DNA of 64,000 nucleotides from Bacteroidota bacterium (GTDB taxonomy: Bacteria; Bacteroidota; Bacteroidia; UKL13-3). Location of the stretch: the NCBI GenBank assembly GCA_947457395.1, contig CANGVA010000001.1, positions 62,001 to 126,000 of the forward strand, read 5' to 3'. Below the pieces are notes generated by a model. That model made no database searches. It was given only the letters and a program-made list of their open reading frames with translations, and was not told the DNA's origin. Position numbers and translations under genes: made by a program. Positions within the stretch are counted from its first letter, which is position 1. The number at the start of each line of letters is the position of its first letter. This document shows positions 50,957 to 64,000 of this stretch, piece by piece.

Positions 50957-53900
50957 CTAGAAATCCATGCTGAGTGATAAATAGTAAACCGGTTTTCTGT
51001 TAACCTCTCGATCTTGAATGCCCCATGCGGTATCAAATCTCACAAAGTAACCGAATAACTTGGTACGCAAGCCACCGCCCATTCCTGCTACAATAGGCTC
51101 CCTAACATTAATTACTGTAACACGGATATATTTTTTTTCAACGACCTTTAAATTATTGGTATTTTCCTCCGAATAAGGATCGCTTCCTACCCAAGCAGTT
51201 CCAATATCAAAGAAAGGTACCACTTGAAAGTTGTTGATAAACTCAGAACGTATTGGTCTGTTAAATAAATAGGAGAAAACAGGGAAACGAATTTCATTGC
51301 TGATACATGCGAATGAATTTCCGTTTCTAATGTTTTGATTAAACCCCCTCATATTGGTTGCCAGCGCCTGAAAGGCATAATTTTCTGTAGCGATGGTTCC
51401 TTGTGAGTTATCAAACTGTGCAAAGAGCCAGTTATCAACGCCACCCATAACATACTTCACCTTAGCTGGCCCGAATGAAGTATTATATGTGATACGTGTT
51501 GCAAAAATTAATTGCCTATGTAATGGTTCATAGTGCCTGAAGTCAAAACCTACTGCATTGAGTTGCACATCCTCATTATCCCAATTTTGATATCGCTCGT
51601 AAAAAATTTTGAAACGGGTACCATTCCATAGGTTTAAGCCTTTGGGCACAGTATTATCAAAAACAAATTCTGCTTTACCTCCATACCAGTAATTTAAATT
51701 ATCAGGCCTTTCAAGAGAAGTTCTGGATGTTGCCAAAAATATATCGCGGTCGGCTCTGCCAAAAATGCTAAGCCTTAAACTCATAACCGGATTAAAAGGA
51801 TATTTTATCTGGTATCTTATTTCATTGGAGATGCTATTTACTGCCGTGTTTTCTGCTTGCCCCTCTCGTACCTGTCTGTAAAAAGTAAATTTATGATCCA
51901 GTTTTTTCTTTAGGTTTTCATATGACAGGAAATAGTCGGCACCTGTAAAATCCAAGGTAAACCTAACCCCGCCTACAATGCGATAGTCCTCAAATAAATC
52001 TATTAACCCTACCTTAAACATGCCGTTTAATCCGGGATTAAACATATTTTGGCCACTGGGCACAATTGGCTGATAATAGGTGTTTATAATGGAGTTATCC
52101 AATTGCGTAACCAGAAAGTCAGAGAAAAAGGTAACATCATAAAAGCGAGGCGCGGCCAGTTTAAAGTTTTTTCCCAGGCCCGATGCAGGTAGTTTATATT
52201 CCTGCTGAACTTTTATATCCTCAGGTTTCGCGGTAGGAGATGTAAATTCATTAACAAAGAAATAAGCATATTTTTCAACCACTACCTCTTTCTCAGCTAC
52301 GATTGGTTGTATGTCTGCTTTTTTTCTGCGCTTGCTGTATACAACCGGTCCGGAAACGAATGACTTATTTACAGGACCTGATTTTAGCCTGTACATATTT
52401 GGGTAAGTTTCAATTTTTCTGCTATCGGCTTCTACTGTTTTTGAAACAGAGACATTCTTTATGTGAAATTTTTGCTCATCAAAAATGACTTCATACAGCT
52501 GCTGAGTTTGCCTTGCCACATCATGTGAGAGAATACTCCTTTTATAATTGGTAAGTGGGTATGTATATACAATATCTTTATTATGGATAATGGTATCTAT
52601 TTTAACCACATTACTATCCAGCACCATTCTTTTACCTTCATATTCAAACTCGCTGCCCTGGTCTTTGAGTTCATCATAAAACAAGGTATCTGCTGGTATT
52701 TCAGGATTGCGGTAGTGTATATTTAACTCTGTAAAATCATACTCAGTTTCTACGCGCACGGCATACCTGTTTTTAATGCCATTATAATCTGTAAGGTAAC
52801 CGAAATAATTATTGCTGTATTCAATTGGGTGTGTCTCATTTATTCCGGGTGAGTAGGTTAGCCGTTTTAATTCAGTACCCGGATCTTCAAAATCATATAA
52901 GTAAATATCAAGATTGTTTCCTTGCTGCAGGGTAGGTGTGGATGGCGCCCCAATTAAATTACTGTTTCGGTTAGAGGAGAATATGATTTTTGATGAGCCA
53001 TCTACAAACCTAGGGTAGAGATCATCATGCATGTCATTTGTAAGTTGCCGCTCTCTGCGGCTTTGGATATCATATGAGTAGAGGTCTGACTGTCCTTTTC
53101 TGACGGCCGATAAAACAAGGGTGCGCTGATTATCTGAATAAGTGAATGATAAAATTTTATCAAATTTCAGGAAAGGTGTGTGCTGTTTCTTTTTGGTGAT
53201 GAGGTCTACAGTTGTAAGAATTACTTTCCCTCTTTTCTCATGTATATATGCAAATTTTTCGCCTCCGGGATGCCATGCAACCATTGGATAAGAGTGGTCA
53301 AGTTCTTTTTGGTGATATTTTAAGCCACCCTTATGGATTTTTTTGCTTTTACCAGTTTGTGTGTTAAGCATCCATATTTTGTATTTGCCGTTGCGGTTTG
53401 TTTTGTAAATCAACCGATCACCTTTTGGGCTTACGCTCAAATCAGGCTCTACATAAGGCATCAAACGCTTCTTAACTTTAAAACCGTTATTAGGCAAGGT
53501 TCTGCCATTGTCTTCTTTGGCATATTGATCTCTATAATATTGGAGCCAGTCTTTGCTGCTTTGCTTAAGTGATGTTCCGGTAACATAAATAAGTGCAGTT
53601 TCAAAATTACGACTGATTCTTGTTACGTAAAGCATTTGGGCTACTACCTCTATGCCATATTTTTCTATCAAAAATCTCCAGTATGAGCTGCCTGCCAGCA
53701 GATAATCTTGCTGAATTAGGCGGTTAAACTTTTTAAACTTAGGCTTTGCTATGATATCTTTTAGCAGATTATCTTTCTCAACGTCCCACGGGTTTCCAAT
53801 ATACTCGGATAGGCCAAACAAATACCAATCTGGCAGATTAAGCAATGCTGCATTTTGAATCCGCTCCTGAATATTTCCGCCAAAAAGCAGCTCGTTAATA

Positions 53901-54343
53901 AGCACTAGTGCAATACCTGAGCGTATTTGTTTTTTAAAATCGGCATGGTTGCCTGTGAAATACACGAATACCTTATTGCTATTAACTTGGGATGTGCCAC
54001 CGGTATTCACCGGTTCATCGGTTAGGTTAAAATTGCCTTGTTTATAATCACTCAGGTTGTTGTAGCAAATAATTTCAACCCTGCCGCTCAGTCGGTGGTC
54101 TAAAATATTCTCAATCTCATTTAATTCAGCTTCAGCGGTGCGTGCTGCAAAGGTTGCAAGCTCTCTTCCCCCTGAATAAAAGTAAGCGTCATAATTCTCT
54201 GAACGCAGATAAGACCATTCAAACCTACCATATTGCACCCTGTTTTGACCAAAAGTAGTATACATGCCCTGTCCCTGCACCCTAAATATTCCAAGCAGGG
54301 AAATACCGCATAGAACTAAGAATATGTTTTTACGATGTCTGAT
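50957..54343 (-). CDS. peptidase-like / TolB propeller / outer-membrane beta-barrel fusion
   Basis: The track starts this ORF at GTG 54280 (1107 residues), but the frame stays open upstream. It encodes RKNIFLVLCGISLLGIFRVQ, a clear signal peptide, with ATC 54343 as the first possible (non-standard) start after the stop. The N-terminal 250 residues resemble a peptidase MA-like domain, with the HExxH position occupied by LVLINEL and LPDWYLFGLSEYIG in the WLxEGxAxY position, so it is probably inactive. Residues 280-560 form TolB/WD40-like propeller repeats (SPKGDRLIYKTNRNGKYKIWML). The C-terminal 400 residues look like a BamA/surface-antigen barrel ending in an aromatic YYLSLSMDF. It is probably an outer-membrane protein. 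Confidence 0.82.
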   Translation of the reverse strand: MRHRKNIFLVLCGISLLGIFRVQGQGMYTTFGQNRVQYGRFEWSYLRSENYDAYFYSGGRELATFAARTAEAELNEIENILDHRLSGRVEIICYNNLSDYKQGNFNLTDEPVNTGGTSQVNSNKVFVYFTGNHADFKKQIRSGIALVLINELLFGGNIQERIQNAALLNLPDWYLFGLSEYIGNPWDVEKDNLLKDIIAKPKFKKFNRLIQQDYLLAGSSYWRFLIEKYGIEVVAQMLYVTRISRNFETALIYVTGTSLKQSSKDWLQYYRDQYAKEDNGRTLPNNGFKVKKRLMPYVEPDLSVSPKGDRLIYKTNRNGKYKIWMLNTQTGKSKKIHKGGLKYHQKELDHSYPMVAWHPGGEKFAYIHEKRGKVILTTVDLITKKKQHTPFLKFDKILSFTYSDNQRTLVLSAVRKGQSDLYSYDIQSRRERQLTNDMHDDLYPRFVDGSSKIIFSSNRNSNLIGAPSTPTLQQGNNLDIYLYDFEDPGTELKRLTYSPGINETHPIEYSNNYFGYLTDYNGIKNRYAVRVETEYDFTELNIHYRNPEIPADTLFYDELKDQGSEFEYEGKRMVLDSNVVKIDTIIHNKDIVYTYPLTNYKRSILSHDVARQTQQLYEVIFDEQKFHIKNVSVSKTVEADSRKIETYPNMYRLKSGPVNKSFVSGPVVYSKRRKKADIQPIVAEKEVVVEKYAYFFVNEFTSPTAKPEDIKVQQEYKLPASGLGKNFKLAAPRFYDVTFFSDFLVTQLDNSIINTYYQPIVPSGQNMFNPGLNGMFKVGLIDLFEDYRIVGGVRFTLDFTGADYFLSYENLKKKLDHKFTFYRQVREGQAENTAVNSISNEIRYQIKYPFNPVMSLRLSIFGRADRDIFLATSRTSLERPDNLNYWYGGKAEFVFDNTVPKGLNLWNGTRFKIFYERYQNWDNEDVQLNAVGFDFRHYEPLHRQLIFATRITYNTSFGPAKVKYVMGGVDNWLFAQFDNSQGTIATENYAFQALATNMRGFNQNIRNGNSFACISNEIRFPVFSYLFNRPIRSEFINNFQVVPFFDIGTAWVGSDPYSEENTNNLKVVEKKYIRVTVINVREPIVAGMGGGLRTKLFGYFVRFDTAWGIQDREVNRKPVYYLSLSMDF

Positions 54344-54504
54344 AAGGCTGAATCTTTAGCTATCAAAGTTTAATAATCTTAAACATTTAAACAAATAAAT
54401 ACCATAAAGTTTATGGCATATTTAGACATAGTAATCATAGAAAAGCAAGAAATTACTTTTTTATATGGATTTGTTTTTTAAATTTTGATTTTCAGGGTTT
54501 TTTG

Positions 54505-54546: not shown

Positions 54547-57500
54547 ATGAAAAACCTCAATTCTCCTCTCAGAGTTGTTACTCTGCTATTCTTTTTTATT
54601 ATTCAGGCAATTCCTTCAACAACCTATGCAGCACTCTCAGGTAATTATACCATCGATTCATCTCAAGCTGCTACGTTAACCAATTACCGCGACTTTGTAT
54701 CTGCTATTAGTGATATGCGGATTGGAACGCGCTCAGACGGAGGCACGCCTAATGGGGCAGGACTTACCGGCCCCGTTGTTTTTAATGTGGCTGCGGGCAC
54801 GTGGGTTGGGCAACTGGATATTACCGGAATAACCGGTGTAAGTGCAACTAATCAAATAACGTTTGATGGCGGAAACGGAAATGCTGCTACCCGTATCATT
54901 CAGTTTAGTGCTACTTCACTTGCTTCGGCATTTACCGTGCGGATTAACAATCAGCAATTTGTTAATCTTAGAAATTTAACCATTATTGGCTCAGGTCCAA
55001 GTTTTGCATGGCCTTTGCACATTTTCAACACCTCAAGCAACGTCAAGGTTAAGAATTGTATTATTCAATTTACATCAGCATTTTCTGCACACACAAGTAC
55101 CAATTTTGCCGCAGTGGTTCTTAACAACAGCACAGCCAGTCCAACTTCTGGAGGCTCAGCAGCGGTTAATGTAGAAATTGACAGCAATCGCATTGTGGGT
55201 GGGAATGGAAATTATTTAATAGGTAACGGATTAAATACAGGGATCTTTTTCAGAAGAAATCAGGTTGACAGTTCATTTCTTTATGGTGTTTTTGCCCAGG
55301 CTGTTGGGAGTTTAACCATCAACAATAACAGTTTGAACATGCTGAGTGCGGGGAATATTTCATCTGCAGGTATTTATTTAAACAGCACCCCTCCAACTAC
55401 ATCCAGTTTTCATCAAATTAACGGCAACAGTATTATTCAGGCTGGTCTATACGGCATATTTATATCTGGAACAAATGCACAGTCTACTCCGCGCTGTCAA
55501 CTAATCAATAATGCAATTGGAGGTGGCTTCAGGAATACAGGCAATCCTGCAGGAATTTATTTTACTTCTACATATGGTTGGGATGTGTTTTATAACAGTG
55601 TTAATCTAGATAATGTTGCAACTGGTAGTCAGGCTGCTGCTTTTTTCTTTAATAATTGTTGTACAACAGGCTCAACCTTGCTCGATATCAGAAACAACAT
55701 ATTTGCAGTAACTTCTCCATCAAGTTCAGCATTTACTTTTTACTACGTCAATACCAGTTCGTTCCAATATGTAGTAACAACAACGGCTGCATTAAATTTT
55801 AATAATTATTTTAAAGCGGGTATTCAATCTACTCAACCTACGGTATATTTTGGCGGAAGTGTACTAACACCTGCAAACCTGATTGGTAACGGAGGGTACA
55901 ATACCAATTCAATCATTACTGATCCTACGTTTACCAGCAGGTTCAACCTCAGGCCACTCAATCCTTGCAACAATGGAACGGCCATCGCTGGTATTATTAC
56001 TGATCTTGCGGGAGCAACAAGGAATATGCCTCCTGATATTGGTGCCTATGAAGTTACACCTGTTAACAATGATATAGGAGTGGAGCGCATTACCTCGCCT
56101 GCTTTGCCATTTAGTGCCGGTAATCAAAACATAACAGTTGTGCTCAGGAATTATGGGTCCAACACTATTACAAGCGCCAATGTTAGTTATTCAATTAACG
56201 GAGGTTTCCCGGTTACACTGCCTTTTAGCGGAAGTTTAGCCCCTTGCGGTACAGCAACTTTTACTTTTTCTGGTGGCAGCCAGTTTAACTTCTTGCCCAA
56301 CACACCATATCAAATAAAGGTTTATACTGATAATCCAAATAATAATGCAGATGCAGTGCCCGCAAATGATACTGCAAGTATTCCTTTAATATATTCAGGT
56401 TTATCAGGAAATTATACCATTGACCAATCACAGCCTGCAAGCCCAACCAACTTTACCTCGTTTACATCAGCAGCGCTTGCATTGAATAATGGTGGTGTAT
56501 CAGGTCCGGTTTTCTTTTCAGTTCAGGGATCAACGCCTTATGTTGAACAAATCAAGTTAGTAAATGTATCGGGCAGCTCAGCTACTAATACCATTACTTT
56601 TGATGGTGGTGCAGGTAATGCTGCTAACAGAATAATCACATTTGCTGCAACCTTGCAGGCAGAGAGCCATACCATACGTATTGAGAATACGCCTTGGGTA
56701 AATATTAGAAATCTTACAATCAGAGGAACAGGAGCATCTTTTGCCTGGCCAATGCACATATTTGGTAATAGTGCATCCAACATCAAGGTAAAAAATTGTG
56801 TGATGAATTTTACTGGTGGTAATGGTGTTAACGGAACCAATGACAATTTCACAGGATTGGTATTGAACGGATCAACTACGAGTGTATACAGTAATAGTTC
56901 TGCTTTTAATATTGAGCTTGATAGCAATACCATTGATGGTGGCAACAATGGTATGTTTATTTATACCCAAAACAGCAATAATATTACCATGAACAATAAC
57001 CGCATTAATAATGCGAATTTGTATGGCATTTATTTTTACTACACAACGGCCTTTCGTTGTAATAATAATATCATTAACATGAGGCCAACGGGTGCATCAA
57101 ACTCAATGGGTATTTATGCAAATTTTCCTGCCAACTCCGGTACTTATGCCAAAGAAATTATAGGTAATGTAATTACAGATGCCGGCCAGTATGGATTGAA
57201 CCTATATTACATGCAAGGTACCACCGCTCAGCGGGCAAGAGTGGTAAATAACATGATTGGAGGAAATTTCAGAAGTACAGATCCTGCCGGTATTTACATG
57301 AACCAAAATTGTACGAACGTAGATGTATGGTTTAACAGCGTAAATTTAGATAACGCTGCAACATCTACTCAGACTGCCGCCCTTGAGATTTTATTTAATT
57401 GCTCTGGATTAGATGTGCGTAATAATAATCTTGTAGTTACCAATGCTAACTCAACAGCTTTTGCATTGTTGTGCGATAATCAAAGCAGTTTCAATCAACT

Positions 57501-60500
57501 GGATTACAACAATTACTTTAAGGCTGGCAGTCCGCTAAGGCTGGTTGGTATAGGCACCAATGTATACTCACCAGCATCCATGAGAGGAGCCCTAGGTTTT
57601 AACAGCAACTCGGTTAGTATTAATCCTTCCTATGTATCTACAAAAAATCTGGCTACCAATCTTGTGTGTAACAATGGTATTGCAATCCCTGGTATTACAA
57701 CCGACTATGAAGGTCAAACGCGGAATAATCCACCTGATATTGGTGCAGATGAAAATATCAGTGTAGCAGCACTTGACCTAAGCCTGCAGCAAATTACAGC
57801 ACCACAAATTCCGATGCCTGTTGGCACACAAAACATCAGGGTGGTAGTGCGAAATAATGGTAGCTCACCTGTTACCACGGCTTCAGTATATTACAGTGTT
57901 AATGGCGGAACACTTCAAACCATTAATTGGGGTGGTACCTTGGCCCCATGTGATAGTGTTACTGTAGAGTTTAATGCCACGAGTGGTCCGGGTGCTTCAG
58001 ATCAGCGCTTCACATTCCTTCCGGGAACCAGCTATACCATATTGGCTTTTGTTGCGAATCCGAATGGTTCACCTGATTTACTCACAGTAAATGATTCGTT
58101 AATTATGGGTCCTGTTTGTGCTGCATTGGCAGGAAACTACATTATTGACAGTTCTGCTTCTGCACAAACAGCTACTACATTCACCAGTGTTTCCGCTGCA
58201 GCCAATGCTTTGAGTTGCGGTGGCATTACAGGGGCTGTTAATTTTGAAGTACTTCAGGGAACATATATTGGTCAGGTAGATATTTCCAATGTTTCAGGCG
58301 TATCTGCTATCAATACCATAGAGTTTAATGGTGGTAATGGCAATGCTGCTAGTCGTATCTTAAGCTTTGGAGCAACGACAACTAATTCACTTCATACCCT
58401 ACGTGTCAACAATACGCAGTTTGTTACCCTACGTAACCTTACTATTCGCGGAACAGGTGCAAGCTTTGGATGGCCGCTTCATTTACTTAATAATACCAGT
58501 AATACAAGAATCAAGAATTGTATTATAGACTTTATCGGTAATGGATTAAATGGCACTTCAGATAATTACGTGGGTATTGTTATGAATAATTGGAGTGCTT
58601 CTGCCTCACCCACCAATTCATCTTCATCATCTATAAATGTTGAGATTGATAGCAATACGATCCGTGGTGCCAACTCATCAGTTTACCTTGTAGGTAATGG
58701 AAATAACACAAATATCTTTTTTAGAAACAATACTTTAGATAGTGCCAATTTTTATGGCTTGTATGCACAAAGTTTAGTAGGTGCAAAAATGAATAACAAC
58801 ACCATAAACATGAGGACTAATGGAAGCACTTCAAGTTATGGCTTTTTCCTTTCAAGTATCAGCGGAACTGCAAGTGCCTTCGCGGAGCTAAACAGAAATA
58901 AGATAATTAATGCAGGCCAATATGGTATTTATGTTGCCAGTTCCACAGCAAACATTGCTAACCGAGCGCAATTGATAAATAATGCTGTTGGAGGTGGGTT
59001 CAGAAATAGCACACCATATGGTATATTCCTAACATCTAGCAGTAACTGGAATATTTGGTTTAACTCTGTGAATATTGACAACGTAGCTTCAGGAACTGCA
59101 GGTGCATTGTTTATCCAGTCAACATCTACTTTGAATGATGTGAGAAACAATAATCTTGCATTAACTCAACCATCTGTAGGAGCAAATATGCTGCCATTAC
59201 GTGCAGCAGCCGGCTGTACTTTTACTACACTTAATTTTAATAACTATTTCAGGCCCGCAACAACTAACCAGCTAATTAATGTAAACGGCACCAATTTTGA
59301 CACCCTAAACTACAATACATTGGCTGCAGGAGGAGTAAACTCGATTAGGAACAATCCGCAGTTCGCAGGGTCAAGAGATTTAACAATCAATACTGGTGCT
59401 AATAATGGAGTATTTATTTCTTCTGTTACAACAGACATAAATAATAATATTCGCAACAACCCGCCAGATATCGGATCTTATGAAACTACTTCAGGATTGG
59501 CGGTTGATTTAGGAATAGTTAGCCTTATTTCTCCTGATACCTTTCTTTCATCAGGTTTAAGAGATGTAACAGTATTGGTAAGAAATTTCGGAACTACACC
59601 TATAACGTCATTTAATTTAAGGCATACAGTAAACGGTACTGCTATGCAAGACAGTATATTTACAGGTTTAAATCTGGCAATAAATGATACACTGCGTATA
59701 ACGCTTAGCGGATCCAAAAGGGCAAATTTCCTTACGGGTATATTAAATTCTTTCAGGGTATATATTCATCAGCCTAATGGGGGCGTAGATAATAATAATA
59801 TCAATGATACCATTACCGTTGGGCCAAAATTTTCAGCACTCAATGGAAACTATACCATCAATCCTTCAGGTTCAGGAGCAACCAATTTTACTACTTTTCG
59901 TGCTGCTGTTAACGCACTGAATTTAGCAGGTGTAGCAGGCCCGGTTGTGTTTACAGTTTCTCCGGCAACGTATAATGAGCAGGTAAATATTGGTATAGTT
60001 GCAGGAGCTTCTGCAACCAATGCCATTTCGTTTACAGGAACAAATGTGGCAACATGTATCATAGATACGGCAGCCAATACTGCTACAAATTATCATACAA
60101 TAAGGCTAACAGATGCGGCATTTGTGAGTTTACGTAATTTAACCATCCGCTCATCAGGCGCTTCATTTGGTGTTGCACTGCAAATTAGCGGCAATAGCAA
60201 CTTTAGTCGTGTAAAGAATTGTGTAATTGAAATTTCTGGAGCAGCCGCAGCCAGCACTAGTTCTAATTTTATTGCTGTGCTTATGGGCAATACAACGAAT
60301 GTGACCTCTCCTTTTTTCAGTGGCCAGCAGATAACGGGTTTTGAGCTAGATAGTAATATTATTAATAATGGGTATTACGGAATATTTATGTTTGGTCGAT
60401 TCAGCACGCCCTTTCCTTTTGATAACATGATTAGAAGAAACCAGATAATGAATGCTTTTTATTATGGTGTTTATGTTTCAAATTTTGAGGCGCTTAATTT

Positions 60501-63500
60501 TAGTAATAATATAGTAAACATGAGAAACCCGGGCACAACCAATGCTTATGGTTTTTATATGCAGAGTTCACAGAACACCCTTGATAGAATTCATAGAATA
60601 AATGGCAACCGATTTTTTAATAGTGGTAATTTTGGAATCTATATTACCAGTTCCGGTTCAGGTACCACAGGAAGAAATCAGCTTATTAATAACATGATTG
60701 CAGGAGGCTTCCGGACATCAAATGCCTATGGTATTTTCCTTAGTGCGGTTGATAATTTTGACATTCTGCATAACTCTGTGAATATTGATATCTCTACCAG
60801 TAATATTCAGTTTGCGTCACTATTTTTAAGTGGCGGCAATAACCTGGATATTCGTAATAATATTTTTGCACATACAGGTGGTGCAGGAAGTGCAGGTATA
60901 CCCGTTTATATCTCAAATCTTCCCGGAGGCTTATTCCGCTTTGATTTCAATAATTATTTTAAAACTTCTACAGCTAATAACACACTTTTATATATAGCAG
61001 GTCCAACATTTAACAGTTTAAATTATAAAGGGGCACTTGGCTATAACACCAACTCTATTGATGTAAATCCTCAGTTTGTTTCATCGGTTGATTTACGAAT
61101 AGGAAATGGCTGTTTAAATGGATTGAATACCGGACAGGTAGCCACAGATATAGATGGAGATATCCGCAATAATCCTCCGGATATTGGCTGTGATGAGTAC
61201 ATTGGGCTAAATAATGATATTGGGGTGGTTTCTGTTACACCGTTTGGTGCGGGTACTCAAAATGTGCGAGTCCTTATAAGAAACTTTGGAGGCAACACAG
61301 TTACATCAGCATTGGTTGGTTACGCTGTTAATGGTGGTCTTGCGAGGGTTGTTACCTTCAACGGTAGTTTGGCACCATGCGATACTGCTACGGTTGTATT
61401 TAGTGGCACCAATCAGTTTACATTTAATTTTGGTGTAAGCTACACCATAGCCGCTTACACGTCTGCACCTAATGGATTATTAGATTCCCGTCAGTCAAAC
61501 GATACATCAATACTTGGACCAACATGCGTTTTCTTAAATGGCGCATACACTATTAACCCTTCTGGTAGCGGATCAGCCAATTTTACATCCTTTACCGCAG
61601 CAGTTGCTGCTCTTAATTGTGGGGGCGTTTCCGCTCCTGTAGTTTTCAATGTAGCTGCCGGTACATATAATGAGCAAGTTGCATTACTTTCTTCTGTTAT
61701 TGGTAGCCCTGCAAATAGCATCACCTTCCAATCAGCAACTGGTCTTGCATCGAGCGTAACCTTAACATTTAATGCCACATCATCTGCGGCAAATTACACC
61801 CTTAACCTTTCAGGTGCCTCAAACATCAGATTCAGAAATATGACTATCAGTGCAACTAATTCATCTTTTGGAACAGCACTGTTACTGAATAATAATGCAT
61901 CAAACGATTCATTCATTAATGTAGTTTTTAATTCTCCTGTTACCACATCAACCAGTAGTAACATGTCTGTTATTATCTGTCCTAGTCCAACAATATCAAA
62001 TTTTATTTCATTTGATACCTGCCGCATAAATAACGGTGCATATGGAGCATTTTTTACTTCATCCGGCAGCAGTACTTTGGGTCAAAGTTCACAAACGCCA
62101 ACTTTTAATAATTGTGATTTTACCAATCAGTATGCCTATGGTATTTACCTTTCAAATATGGAAGGCGTGAGAATGACAAGGAACAGGATACAAACCAATT
62201 CAGCCTTTATTTCATACGCAGGTATTTATAACTATTGGATTACAATTCAGGCAGATTTCAGTAGGCCATTAATTACACAAAATATTATTTCAGGAGGGGC
62301 AGGTGGCTTTGGTATATATAATAATTATCTAGGTGTAAATTCATCCATGTCTGTTGCACGCAGGCCACTCATCGCGAACAACATGGTTTCAATTGGCACA
62401 GGTGCTAATGCTACAAATGGAATATATGATGCTAATAGCAATTGGGCAGATTATTTCCATAATACTGTAAATATTGGATGTAGCCAAACCGGAAATACAT
62501 CGGCAGCCGGCTGCTTTGTTTCTACATCGTATGGTAACTCAACAATCCTCAATAATATATTTGCAGCTTCTAATGGTGCGCCTGCTTTCAGAATGGATAA
62601 TAATACCTTTTATCCAACCTGTAACTTCAATAACTTTTATACCACCGGACCTAATTTAGCATTTCTTTCTTCATCTCCTTTTGCATCAATGCCTGCTTGG
62701 AGAGTTGCTTCCGCAAGAGATGCCAACTCCGTTAACCTTCCTCCCAACTTTCTTTCATTAACAGATTTACGTATTACTTCTGGCTGTATAAATGGTACCC
62801 TAATTGCCGGACTTAATACAGATATTGATGGGAAAACAAGGTCAAATCCTCCTGATATAGGTGCATCAGAATTTACCGGTTCCATTCTTAACGATATTGG
62901 TTTATCGATGTTGCAATCTCCAACTATTCCTTTTTCACCGGGCTTGCAAGATATACGGGTTGTGGTGAGTAACTATGGTTCAAACACTGTGTCATCAGCA
63001 ACAGTAAGATACCGTGTAAATGGTGGCCTACCTGTTACAGCGTCATATAGTGGTGCGTTGGTTGCTTGCGATACTGCAGGTATTTTATTTACCGGTGCAA
63101 ACAGAGTAAATTTTGTATTGGGTACAAGCTATATGCTACAGATTTGGACTGAGCAACCGAATGGTGTAGCAGATAATAACCGCACAAACGATACCATTAC
63201 AGTTACAATCTGTCCTGCATTAAATGGTCCTTATACCATTAATCCTTCAGGCAGTGGCCCAACAAATTTTACCTCTTTTTCGGCAGCAGCGGCAGCACTT
63301 AATTGCGGAGGCATGAATGGTCCTGTAACCTTTACGGTATCACCTGGCATATACAATGAGCAATTTACACTGAGCGGAATTCAGGGTCTTTCAGCGGTTA
63401 ACCGACTTACCATTAATGGTGTGAGTGCAGCAAACAGAACCATCACATTTAACCCAACCGTCAATTCAATGGGTCATACAATCAGGATACAGAATGCACC

Positions 63501-64000
63501 TTTTGTAAGTATCAGAAACCTAACCATTCTTTCCTCAGGTGCAAGCTTTGGTGCACCTGTACATATCCTTGGTTCGAGCAGTAACGCTTCAGTTAAAAAC
63601 TGTATCATTGGCTTTACGGGCAGTGCTGTGAGCAGCACATCATCGGCATATAATGCTGTAATCATTAATAACAATGCTGATGTTACCAATCCTACAGGAA
63701 CAGGTTCAGCAGGATCGGGTATTGAGATAGATAGTAATAATATCCGATTTGGGTTTTATGGTATTTGTATAAGCGGACAAACCAATACACCATACTTAAA
63801 CAGCATATTCGTTCGTAATAATGTTATTGATAGTGCATTTTCGTCAGGTATTTACACCTACTATACAGAAGCATGTAAGTTTTCTAGTAATACCATTCGT
63901 ATGCGTATTACAGGTAACACCAATTCGTTTGGCATGAGTCTTAATTTTGGCTTCTCATCAAACAGCACCTTATTTCATGAGATTGTTGGTAATGCTATTT
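54547..64000 (+). CDS. giant modular beta-helix/CARDB surface protein, 3' end beyond the window
   Basis: This ORF is missing from the supplied track because it has no stop in the window. Reading the frame from the ATG at 54547 by eye gives an uninterrupted protein of at least 3151 codons. A signal peptide (LRVVTLLFFFIIQAIP, cleavage near TYA) is followed by five complete modules and part of a sixth. A module begins (L)xGNYTI-(D/N)-S-like and carries the TNFTSFTAA helix, a GPVVFNVAAGTY strand and RNLTIRGTGASFGWPLHI. Then come right-handed beta-helix rungs rich in NNN, the motif FNSVNLDN, NNYFK, the closing motif RNNPPDIG and a CARDB-like domain (NxGSSPVTTASVYYSVNGG). I expect a T9SS tail but cannot see it. 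Role is unknown; adhesin or extracellular matrix are likely. Confidence 0.88.
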   Translation, partial: MKNLNSPLRVVTLLFFFIIQAIPSTTYAALSGNYTIDSSQAATLTNYRDFVSAISDMRIGTRSDGGTPNGAGLTGPVVFNVAAGTWVGQLDITGITGVSATNQITFDGGNGNAATRIIQFSATSLASAFTVRINNQQFVNLRNLTIIGSGPSFAWPLHIFNTSSNVKVKNCIIQFTSAFSAHTSTNFAAVVLNNSTASPTSGGSAAVNVEIDSNRIVGGNGNYLIGNGLNTGIFFRRNQVDSSFLYGVFAQAVGSLTINNNSLNMLSAGNISSAGIYLNSTPPTTSSFHQINGNSIIQAGLYGIFISGTNAQSTPRCQLINNAIGGGFRNTGNPAGIYFTSTYGWDVFYNSVNLDNVATGSQAAAFFFNNCCTTGSTLLDIRNNIFAVTSPSSSAFTFYYVNTSSFQYVVTTTAALNFNNYFKAGIQSTQPTVYFGGSVLTPANLIGNGGYNTNSIITDPTFTSRFNLRPLNPCNNGTAIAGIITDLAGATRNMPPDIGAYEVTPVNNDIGVERITSPALPFSAGNQNITVVLRNYGSNTITSANVSYSINGGFPVTLPFSGSLAPCGTATFTFSGGSQFNFLPNTPYQIKVYTDNPNNNADAVPANDTASIPLIYSGLSGNYTIDQSQPASPTNFTSFTSAALALNNGGVSGPVFFSVQGSTPYVEQIKLVNVSGSSATNTITFDGGAGNAANRIITFAATLQAESHTIRIENTPWVNIRNLTIRGTGASFAWPMHIFGNSASNIKVKNCVMNFTGGNGVNGTNDNFTGLVLNGSTTSVYSNSSAFNIELDSNTIDGGNNGMFIYTQNSNNITMNNNRINNANLYGIYFYYTTAFRCNNNIINMRPTGASNSMGIYANFPANSGTYAKEIIGNVITDAGQYGLNLYYMQGTTAQRARVVNNMIGGNFRSTDPAGIYMNQNCTNVDVWFNSVNLDNAATSTQTAALEILFNCSGLDVRNNNLVVTNANSTAFALLCDNQSSFNQLDYNNYFKAGSPLRLVGIGTNVYSPASMRGALGFNSNSVSINPSYVSTKNLATNLVCNNGIAIPGITTDYEGQTRNNPPDIGADENISVAALDLSLQQITAPQIPMPVGTQNIRVVVRNNGSSPVTTASVYYSVNGGTLQTINWGGTLAPCDSVTVEFNATSGPGASDQRFTFLPGTSYTILAFVANPNGSPDLLTVNDSLIMGPVCAALAGNYIIDSSASAQTATTFTSVSAAANALSCGGITGAVNFEVLQGTYIGQVDISNVSGVSAINTIEFNGGNGNAASRILSFGATTTNSLHTLRVNNTQFVTLRNLTIRGTGASFGWPLHLLNNTSNTRIKNCIIDFIGNGLNGTSDNYVGIVMNNWSASASPTNSSSSSINVEIDSNTIRGANSSVYLVGNGNNTNIFFRNNTLDSANFYGLYAQSLVGAKMNNNTINMRTNGSTSSYGFFLSSISGTASAFAELNRNKIINAGQYGIYVASSTANIANRAQLINNAVGGGFRNSTPYGIFLTSSSNWNIWFNSVNIDNVASGTAGALFIQSTSTLNDVRNNNLALTQPSVGANMLPLRAAAGCTFTTLNFNNYFRPATTNQLINVNGTNFDTLNYNTLAAGGVNSIRNNPQFAGSRDLTINTGANNGVFISSVTTDINNNIRNNPPDIGSYETTSGLAVDLGIVSLISPDTFLSSGLRDVTVLVRNFGTTPITSFNLRHTVNGTAMQDSIFTGLNLAINDTLRITLSGSKRANFLTGILNSFRVYIHQPNGGVDNNNINDTITVGPKFSALNGNYTINPSGSGATNFTTFRAAVNALNLAGVAGPVVFTVSPATYNEQVNIGIVAGASATNAISFTGTNVATCIIDTAANTATNYHTIRLTDAAFVSLRNLTIRSSGASFGVALQISGNSNFSRVKNCVIEISGAAAASTSSNFIAVLMGNTTNVTSPFFSGQQITGFELDSNIINNGYYGIFMFGRFSTPFPFDNMIRRNQIMNAFYYGVYVSNFEALNFSNNIVNMRNPGTTNAYGFYMQSSQNTLDRIHRINGNRFFNSGNFGIYITSSGSGTTGRNQLINNMIAGGFRTSNAYGIFLSAVDNFDILHNSVNIDISTSNIQFASLFLSGGNNLDIRNNIFAHTGGAGSAGIPVYISNLPGGLFRFDFNNYFKTSTANNTLLYIAGPTFNSLNYKGALGYNTNSIDVNPQFVSSVDLRIGNGCLNGLNTGQVATDIDGDIRNNPPDIGCDEYIGLNNDIGVVSVTPFGAGTQNVRVLIRNFGGNTVTSALVGYAVNGGLARVVTFNGSLAPCDTATVVFSGTNQFTFNFGVSYTIAAYTSAPNGLLDSRQSNDTSILGPTCVFLNGAYTINPSGSGSANFTSFTAAVAALNCGGVSAPVVFNVAAGTYNEQVALLSSVIGSPANSITFQSATGLASSVTLTFNATSSAANYTLNLSGASNIRFRNMTISATNSSFGTALLLNNNASNDSFINVVFNSPVTTSTSSNMSVIICPSPTISNFISFDTCRINNGAYGAFFTSSGSSTLGQSSQTPTFNNCDFTNQYAYGIYLSNMEGVRMTRNRIQTNSAFISYAGIYNYWITIQADFSRPLITQNIISGGAGGFGIYNNYLGVNSSMSVARRPLIANNMVSIGTGANATNGIYDANSNWADYFHNTVNIGCSQTGNTSAAGCFVSTSYGNSTILNNIFAASNGAPAFRMDNNTFYPTCNFNNFYTTGPNLAFLSSSPFASMPAWRVASARDANSVNLPPNFLSLTDLRITSGCINGTLIAGLNTDIDGKTRSNPPDIGASEFTGSILNDIGLSMLQSPTIPFSPGLQDIRVVVSNYGSNTVSSATVRYRVNGGLPVTASYSGALVACDTAGILFTGANRVNFVLGTSYMLQIWTEQPNGVADNNRTNDTITVTICPALNGPYTINPSGSGPTNFTSFSAAAAALNCGGMNGPVTFTVSPGIYNEQFTLSGIQGLSAVNRLTINGVSAANRTITFNPTVNSMGHTIRIQNAPFVSIRNLTILSSGASFGAPVHILGSSSNASVKNCIIGFTGSAVSSTSSAYNAVIINNNADVTNPTGTGSAGSGIEIDSNNIRFGFYGICISGQTNTPYLNSIFVRNNVIDSAFSSGIYTYYTEACKFSSNTIRMRITGNTNSFGMSLNFGFSSNSTLFHEIVGNAI
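54634..56400 (+). repeat. giant protein module 1 (589 residues)
   Basis: Opens LSGNYTIDSSQAATLTN. Its helix region closes with RNMPPDIGAYE, followed by the CARDB-like NNDIGVERITSPALPF and SLAPCGTATFTF. It has an extra segment (IGTRSDGGTPNGAG) early on, which partly explains its greater length. Confidence 0.85.
56401..58125 (+). repeat. giant protein module 2 (575 residues)
   Basis: Opens LSGNYTIDQSQPASPTNFTS. It contains RNLTIRGTGASFAWPMHIFG, FNSVNLDNAATSTQTAAL and RNNPPDIGADE, and ends with TLAPCDSVTVEF in its CARDB-like domain. Confidence 0.85.
58126..59838 (+). repeat. giant protein module 3 (571 residues)
   Basis: Opens LAGNYIIDSSASAQTATTF. It keeps RNLTIRGTGASFGWPLHL, FNSVNIDNVASG and RNNPPDIGSYE. 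Its CARDB-like domain lacks the LAPCD cysteine seen in modules 1, 2 and 4 (NLAINDTLRI here). Confidence 0.85.
59839..61533 (+). repeat. giant protein module 4 (565 residues)
   Basis: Opens LNGNYTINPSGSGATNF, the first of the three modules with the NPSGSG variant. RNNPPDIGCDEY closes the helix region, and SLAPCDTATVVF marks its CARDB-like domain. Confidence 0.85.
61534..63219 (+). repeat. giant protein module 5 (562 residues)
   Basis: Opens LNGAYTINPSGSGSANF. It is the most divergent module in its centre: RFRNMTISATNSSFGTALLL replaces RNLTIRGTGASF, and FHNTVNIGCSQTG replaces FNSVNLDN. It closes with RSNPPDIGASEF and ALVACDTAGILF. Confidence 0.8.
63220..64000 (+). repeat. giant protein module 6, truncated by the window (260 residues seen)
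   Basis: Opens LNGPYTINPSGSGPTNF and reads on through RNLTILSSGASFGAPVHILG before the edge. The closing motif and CARDB-like domain lie outside the window. Confidence 0.8.

Follow-up and report, generated by a model that had tools for sequence, protein, structure and literature searches.

A minus-strand gene in the 64,000-nucleotide window (the whole stretch of DNA that was analysed) encodes a conserved signal peptide, has no canonical start codon in front of it, and retains a conserved promoter and start position. From comparison with related genomes, the gene is probably intact and would start at the AUC codon at 54343, read by the initiator tRNA; this reading is given a probability of roughly 65%. 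To our knowledge, hardly any natural AUC start has been documented, and such starts escape standard gene callers. In the present gene, a caller truncates the exported protein, deletes the signal peptide and would misplace the protein in the cell. The coordinates of the features are collected in Table 1.

Table 1. Features at the 5′ end of the gene and its extent (positions within the window)
Feature	Position	Strand	Remarks
-33 TTG element	54392..54394	-	20 nt before the -7 box; conserved
-7 promoter box AAACTTTG	54364..54371	-	Conserved with the sister species; spacing shared in the family
5′ leader (predicted), 16 nt	54344..54359	-	Little structure; A at -6, -12, -13 and -14 from the ATC
In-frame TAA	54356..54358	-	Upstream bound of the frame
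Proposed start codon ATC	54341..54343	-	Context rank 1 of 37; 20 nt after the -7 box
Signal peptide IRHRKNIFLVLCGISLLGIFRVQG	54272..54343	-	Cleavage before QGMYT, by homology
GTG, start called by standard ORF finding	54278..54280	-	Rejected as the real start
Coding sequence, proposed AUC start to stop	50957..54343	-	1128 aa; signal peptide, TolB-like propeller segment, probable C-terminal outer-membrane beta-barrel

Reading frame and signal peptide in the family

The frame ends at 50957 and is bounded upstream by the in-frame TAA at 54358-54356, from which it reads RFSL-IRHRKNIFLVLCGISLLGIFRVQGQGM. The codons after the TAA are AGA TTC AGC CTT ATC AGA CAT CGT AAA AAC ATA TTC TTA GTT CTA TGC GGT ATT TCC CTG CTT GGA ATA TTT AGG GTG, in which the ATC occupies 54343-54341 and the final GTG 54280-54278; the next ATG is found at 54265-54263. 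The preliminary description had held that the frame upstream of this GTG contains no ATG, GTG or TTG and that the ATC is the first usable codon. The former is confirmed to the exact coordinate for the interval between the TAA and the GTG, and spacing, context and relatives all point to the same ATC. Across all three frames of the leader, no ATG, GTG or TTG occurs from 54363, just past the -7 box, to 54312. The first such codon is an out-of-frame ATG at 54311, which opens a 9-codon ORF (MRYFPAWNI), and the sole nearby upstream TTG, at 54366, is out of frame and lies within the -7 box. The identity of the focal base rests on one draft genome of the species.

The family was sampled in 64 genomes, of which 53 carry the gene and 49 have a readable 5′ end. 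A signal peptide, as judged by hydropathy and inspection, is encoded in all 49 of these orthologs, with a 10-residue Kyte–Doolittle maximum of the hydrophobic core between 1.85 and 3.61 (n = 49). The core ends in (A/G/S)QG directly before the conserved start of the mature protein, typically (M/I)(Y/N)TxFGQNR. The focal protein has a positively charged n-region, a hydrophobic core and a small residue at the cleavage site, all kept in the orthologs, and is thus predicted to be exported to the envelope via Sec. The signal peptide that had been proposed upstream of the GTG at 54280 is therefore borne out. Relatives that began at this GTG with no conserved signal peptide ahead of it would have spoken against it; the comparison gives the opposite pattern, as every readable ortholog encodes the upstream signal peptide. 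It follows that translation does not naturally begin at the called GTG.

The codon with which these orthologs begin is variable: ATG precedes the signal peptide in 29, GTG in 12 and TTG in 6, while two have no canonical start (n = 49). The start codon therefore turns over quickly in this family. The two orthologs without a canonical start are the focal gene and L005, from a species of another genus (genome G020), in which codons 1434-1476 contain no canonical start before the signal peptide, and ATT codons are located 18 and 30 nt past its own -7 box. A separate pair of related species carries ATG CCA TTG (L048, genome G043) and ATA CCA TTG (L051, genome G055) at the focal ortholog; the start of the latter is either the ATA or the TTG two codons later.

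One genome alone, a Sphingobacteriales MAG that represents the sister species, matched in a scan of named genomes, and its protein is 90% identical to the focal gene product. In this species a TTG lies two codons before the position aligned to the focal ATC, so the AUC itself is not conserved. Across the rest of the gene, the changes between the two species number 110, 48 and 480 at codon positions 1, 2 and 3, a distribution that indicates strong purifying selection. At the search threshold used, the genome contains one copy of the gene.

Promoter, leader and start context

In the alignment of the two sister species, a strongly conserved block, TTGTTTAAATGT...AGATTATTAAACTTTG, has the arrangement TTG-N20-AAACTTTG, and conservation drops just downstream. 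This arrangement fits the Bacteroidota promoter. The -7 box of Bacteroidota has the consensus TAnnTTTG, and in Flavobacterium psychrophilum it spans -12 to -5 (PMC9723704); the focal promoter matches the consensus at 5 of 6 positions. When the box is placed at -12 to -5, transcription would start near 54359. The predicted leader is less structured than most of its shuffled versions, 183 of 200 of which fold at least as well.

The distance from box to start in the relatives is mostly 12-27 nt, with a few at 8-10 nt (8-27 nt overall), as counted where a box was found beside an unambiguous start; some relatives yielded no box. The corresponding distance is 20 nt for the focal ATC, 15 nt for the TTG of the sister species and 18 nt for the ATT of L005, compared with 83 nt for the GTG at 54280.

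Start context was scored with a position matrix trained on 292 ATG starts that are conserved in both sister species, covering 20 bases before and 6 bases after the start codon, which was itself excluded. The training set probably holds one wrong case, the focal ATG at 54265, with no material effect. The ATC at 54343 ranks top of the 37 in-frame codons tested and falls at the 51st percentile of true starts, while the GTG at 54280 and the ATG at 54265 are both at the 1st percentile of start contexts. In the benchmark, the top rank went to the true ATG in 69 of 292 genes and to internal near-cognate codons in 29 of 1115, giving a likelihood ratio near 9. Initiation in Flavobacterium johnsoniae is Kozak-like and free of Shine–Dalgarno pairing, and A at -6, -12, -13 and 0 raises it (PMC6847099). 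The focal ATC shares A at all four positions but lacks the favourable A at -3, and the starts described there are ordinary ones.

Near-cognate starts in nrnA and in other systems

About 1 Mb of the genome was screened against the sister species; the screen covered about 367 genes with a usable ortholog and was blind to rare starts with a canonical codon soon after. Convincing near-cognate starts were found only in the focal gene and in nrnA, which encodes an NrnA-like DHH/DHHA1 phosphoesterase on the minus strand of the same contig, outside the window (G000:C1:13683-14687). The other candidates were rejected, having either no clear upstream third-position bias or a canonical start at a plausible N-terminus. 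With two cases among about 367 genes, near-cognate starts are rare, and their use as a lineage-wide rule is rejected.

The upstream codons of nrnA are coding, as their changes at codon positions 1, 2 and 3 number 0, 1 and 6. In 11 species of four genera, the focal one among them (loci L140-L169), the gene opens with CTG AAY AAY AT(T/A), and at the same place ATG AAY AAT AT(T/A) is found in species of genus g6 and TTG in species of genus g3. The CTG has the best context among the in-frame codons of this gene. Conserved to this extent, it cannot be a sequencing error, and the family thus very probably makes use of near-cognate starts, if rarely. For near-cognate initiation, the nrnA CTG makes a stronger case than the focal gene.

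Natural AUU start codons are present in infC and pcnB of E. coli. The infC gene is under autoregulation by IF3, and initiation in E. coli relies on Shine–Dalgarno sites, whereas Bacteroidota are largely without them. The focal gene resembles infC and pcnB in that a third-base near-cognate of AUG would be the only start of an intact gene, with low initiation expected, and differs in that the codon is AUC and not AUU. The IF3 gene of this genome does not have a near-cognate start: in both species of the genus, infC (L070, L071) opens with a conserved TTG (LAAPINPTN), and regulation by IF3 in the manner of E. coli infC was rejected on this account.

Of 61,358 ancestral AUG starts, 2 have switched to CUG and 1 to AUU, with AUC unmentioned in the text of that study (PMC5622118). 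As proposed for the focal gene, near-cognate codons there replace start codons in otherwise conserved genes; the focal case differs in being one genome and in that its proposed codon is AUC. One AUC start has been reported in E. coli from an N-terminal proteomics peptide using TRAINSPOTTER (PMC13245402). That codon yields an N-terminally extended form, whereas the focal AUC would be the sole start. Taken by its own features, the focal gene has conserved coding sequence that no canonical start precedes, and a near-cognate codon where relatives start. The near-cognate codon itself is not conserved, as 47 of the 49 family orthologs have canonical starts; its conservation would add support but is not needed for a gene of this kind. 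It is likely that the gene joins a known but rare kind, that of genes with a near-cognate start codon.

Proposed initiation at AUC, competing explanations and the encoded protein

In the favoured reading, the conserved sigma-A type promoter would direct transcription from near 54359, and a short leader, about 16 nt long and with weak structure, would lead to translation at the AUC. This codon would be read as formyl-methionine by the initiator tRNA through a third-base mismatch, giving a normal signal peptide and an exported outer-membrane protein, probably at a low but sufficient level. Near-cognate starts give low expression. IF3 acts against weak third-base pairs, and such pairs were excluded in PMC10158994; a low output would thus be expected from the AUC. 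The same property counts against the proposal, as a C-C third-base mismatch should be disfavoured by IF3.

The preliminary description had left three options: a rare start codon, an error in a single base, or damage to the 5′ end of the gene. The rare start codon is favoured by the promoter spacing, the start context, the independent L005 ortholog and the nrnA CTG, while damage is the least supported because of the strong purifying selection apparent in the rest of the gene. A consensus or assembly error would place a true canonical start at or near 54343, with one base of the draft wrong or drawn from a minor strain. This is unlikely, yet carries appreciable weight, as the ATC is one base from ATG exactly where a start is expected, and switches to near-cognate codons are very rare elsewhere (PMC5622118). 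Against it stand L005, which in another genus independently lacks a canonical start, and the nrnA CTG, which cannot be an error and makes near-cognate starts very probably real in the family. A missing base was also considered: a one-base shift puts the TTG at 54366 in frame, and at this place the sister species carries a TTG that is already in frame. No other start could be brought in by the loss of a single base, and since this TTG belongs to the conserved -7 box, transcripts from this promoter should not include it. A frameshift from an upstream start was rejected by inspection, the TAA at 54358 and the stops in the other frames leaving only the same TTG.

Recent loss, in which the start codon was destroyed by a point mutation and the gene has newly fallen silent or nearly so, is improbable. 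The 1128-codon frame is open, with changes concentrated at third codon positions, the promoter and signal peptide are intact and the gene is single-copy at the search threshold. Even so, start-codon turnover in the family is fast, and a very recent loss would look alike despite the signal of purifying selection. A start at the GTG at 54280 or the ATG at 54265 is very improbable: it would remove the signal peptide common to all readable family orthologs, both contexts are at the bottom of the range, and the GTG lies far beyond the box-to-start distances of relatives with a box. These are nonetheless the first canonical in-frame codons, and the stop (TAG) of the 9-codon ORF at 54311 lies just upstream of the GTG, which would suit re-initiation; the out-of-frame ATG of this ORF is absent in the sister species. 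Use of another in-frame non-standard codon is hardly credible. Before the hydrophobic core, the ATA at 54325 is the sole near-cognate codon besides the ATC, but its context is at the 7th percentile and a start there would cost the signal peptide its positively charged n-region.

Beyond the proposed initiation at AUC in this one gene, it may tentatively be postulated that the family tolerates near-cognate codons as sole starts, with AUC or AUU in the outer-membrane gene and CUG fixed in nrnA across four genera. Such starts would be chosen by their promoter-proximal position and A-rich context and not by codon identity, with initiation proceeding without Shine–Dalgarno pairing, and could be kept for low expression. 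Together, the focal AUC and the conserved nrnA CTG allow near-cognate initiation to be tested in a phylum whose ribosomes make no use of Shine–Dalgarno sequences.

The encoded protein contains a TolB-like propeller segment in its middle, seen as weak matches to NCBIfam and to solved TolB structures, and in this it resembles the TolB-like propeller proteins of the Bacteroidota envelope. The match to TIGR02800 covers only residues 356-461 and scores 64.3 bits against a cut-off of 343.15; falling so far below this equivalog cut-off, identity as TolB of the Tol-Pal system was rejected. A strict Pfam search of the protein gave no match, with PD40 sub-threshold. The C-terminal half is probably an outer-membrane beta-barrel, as expected from the family. 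On the plus strand, a divergent ORF (54547-64000) starts MKNLNSPLRVVTLLFFF with a signal peptide and is open to the window end over more than 3150 codons; its product is predicted to be a giant secreted or surface protein.
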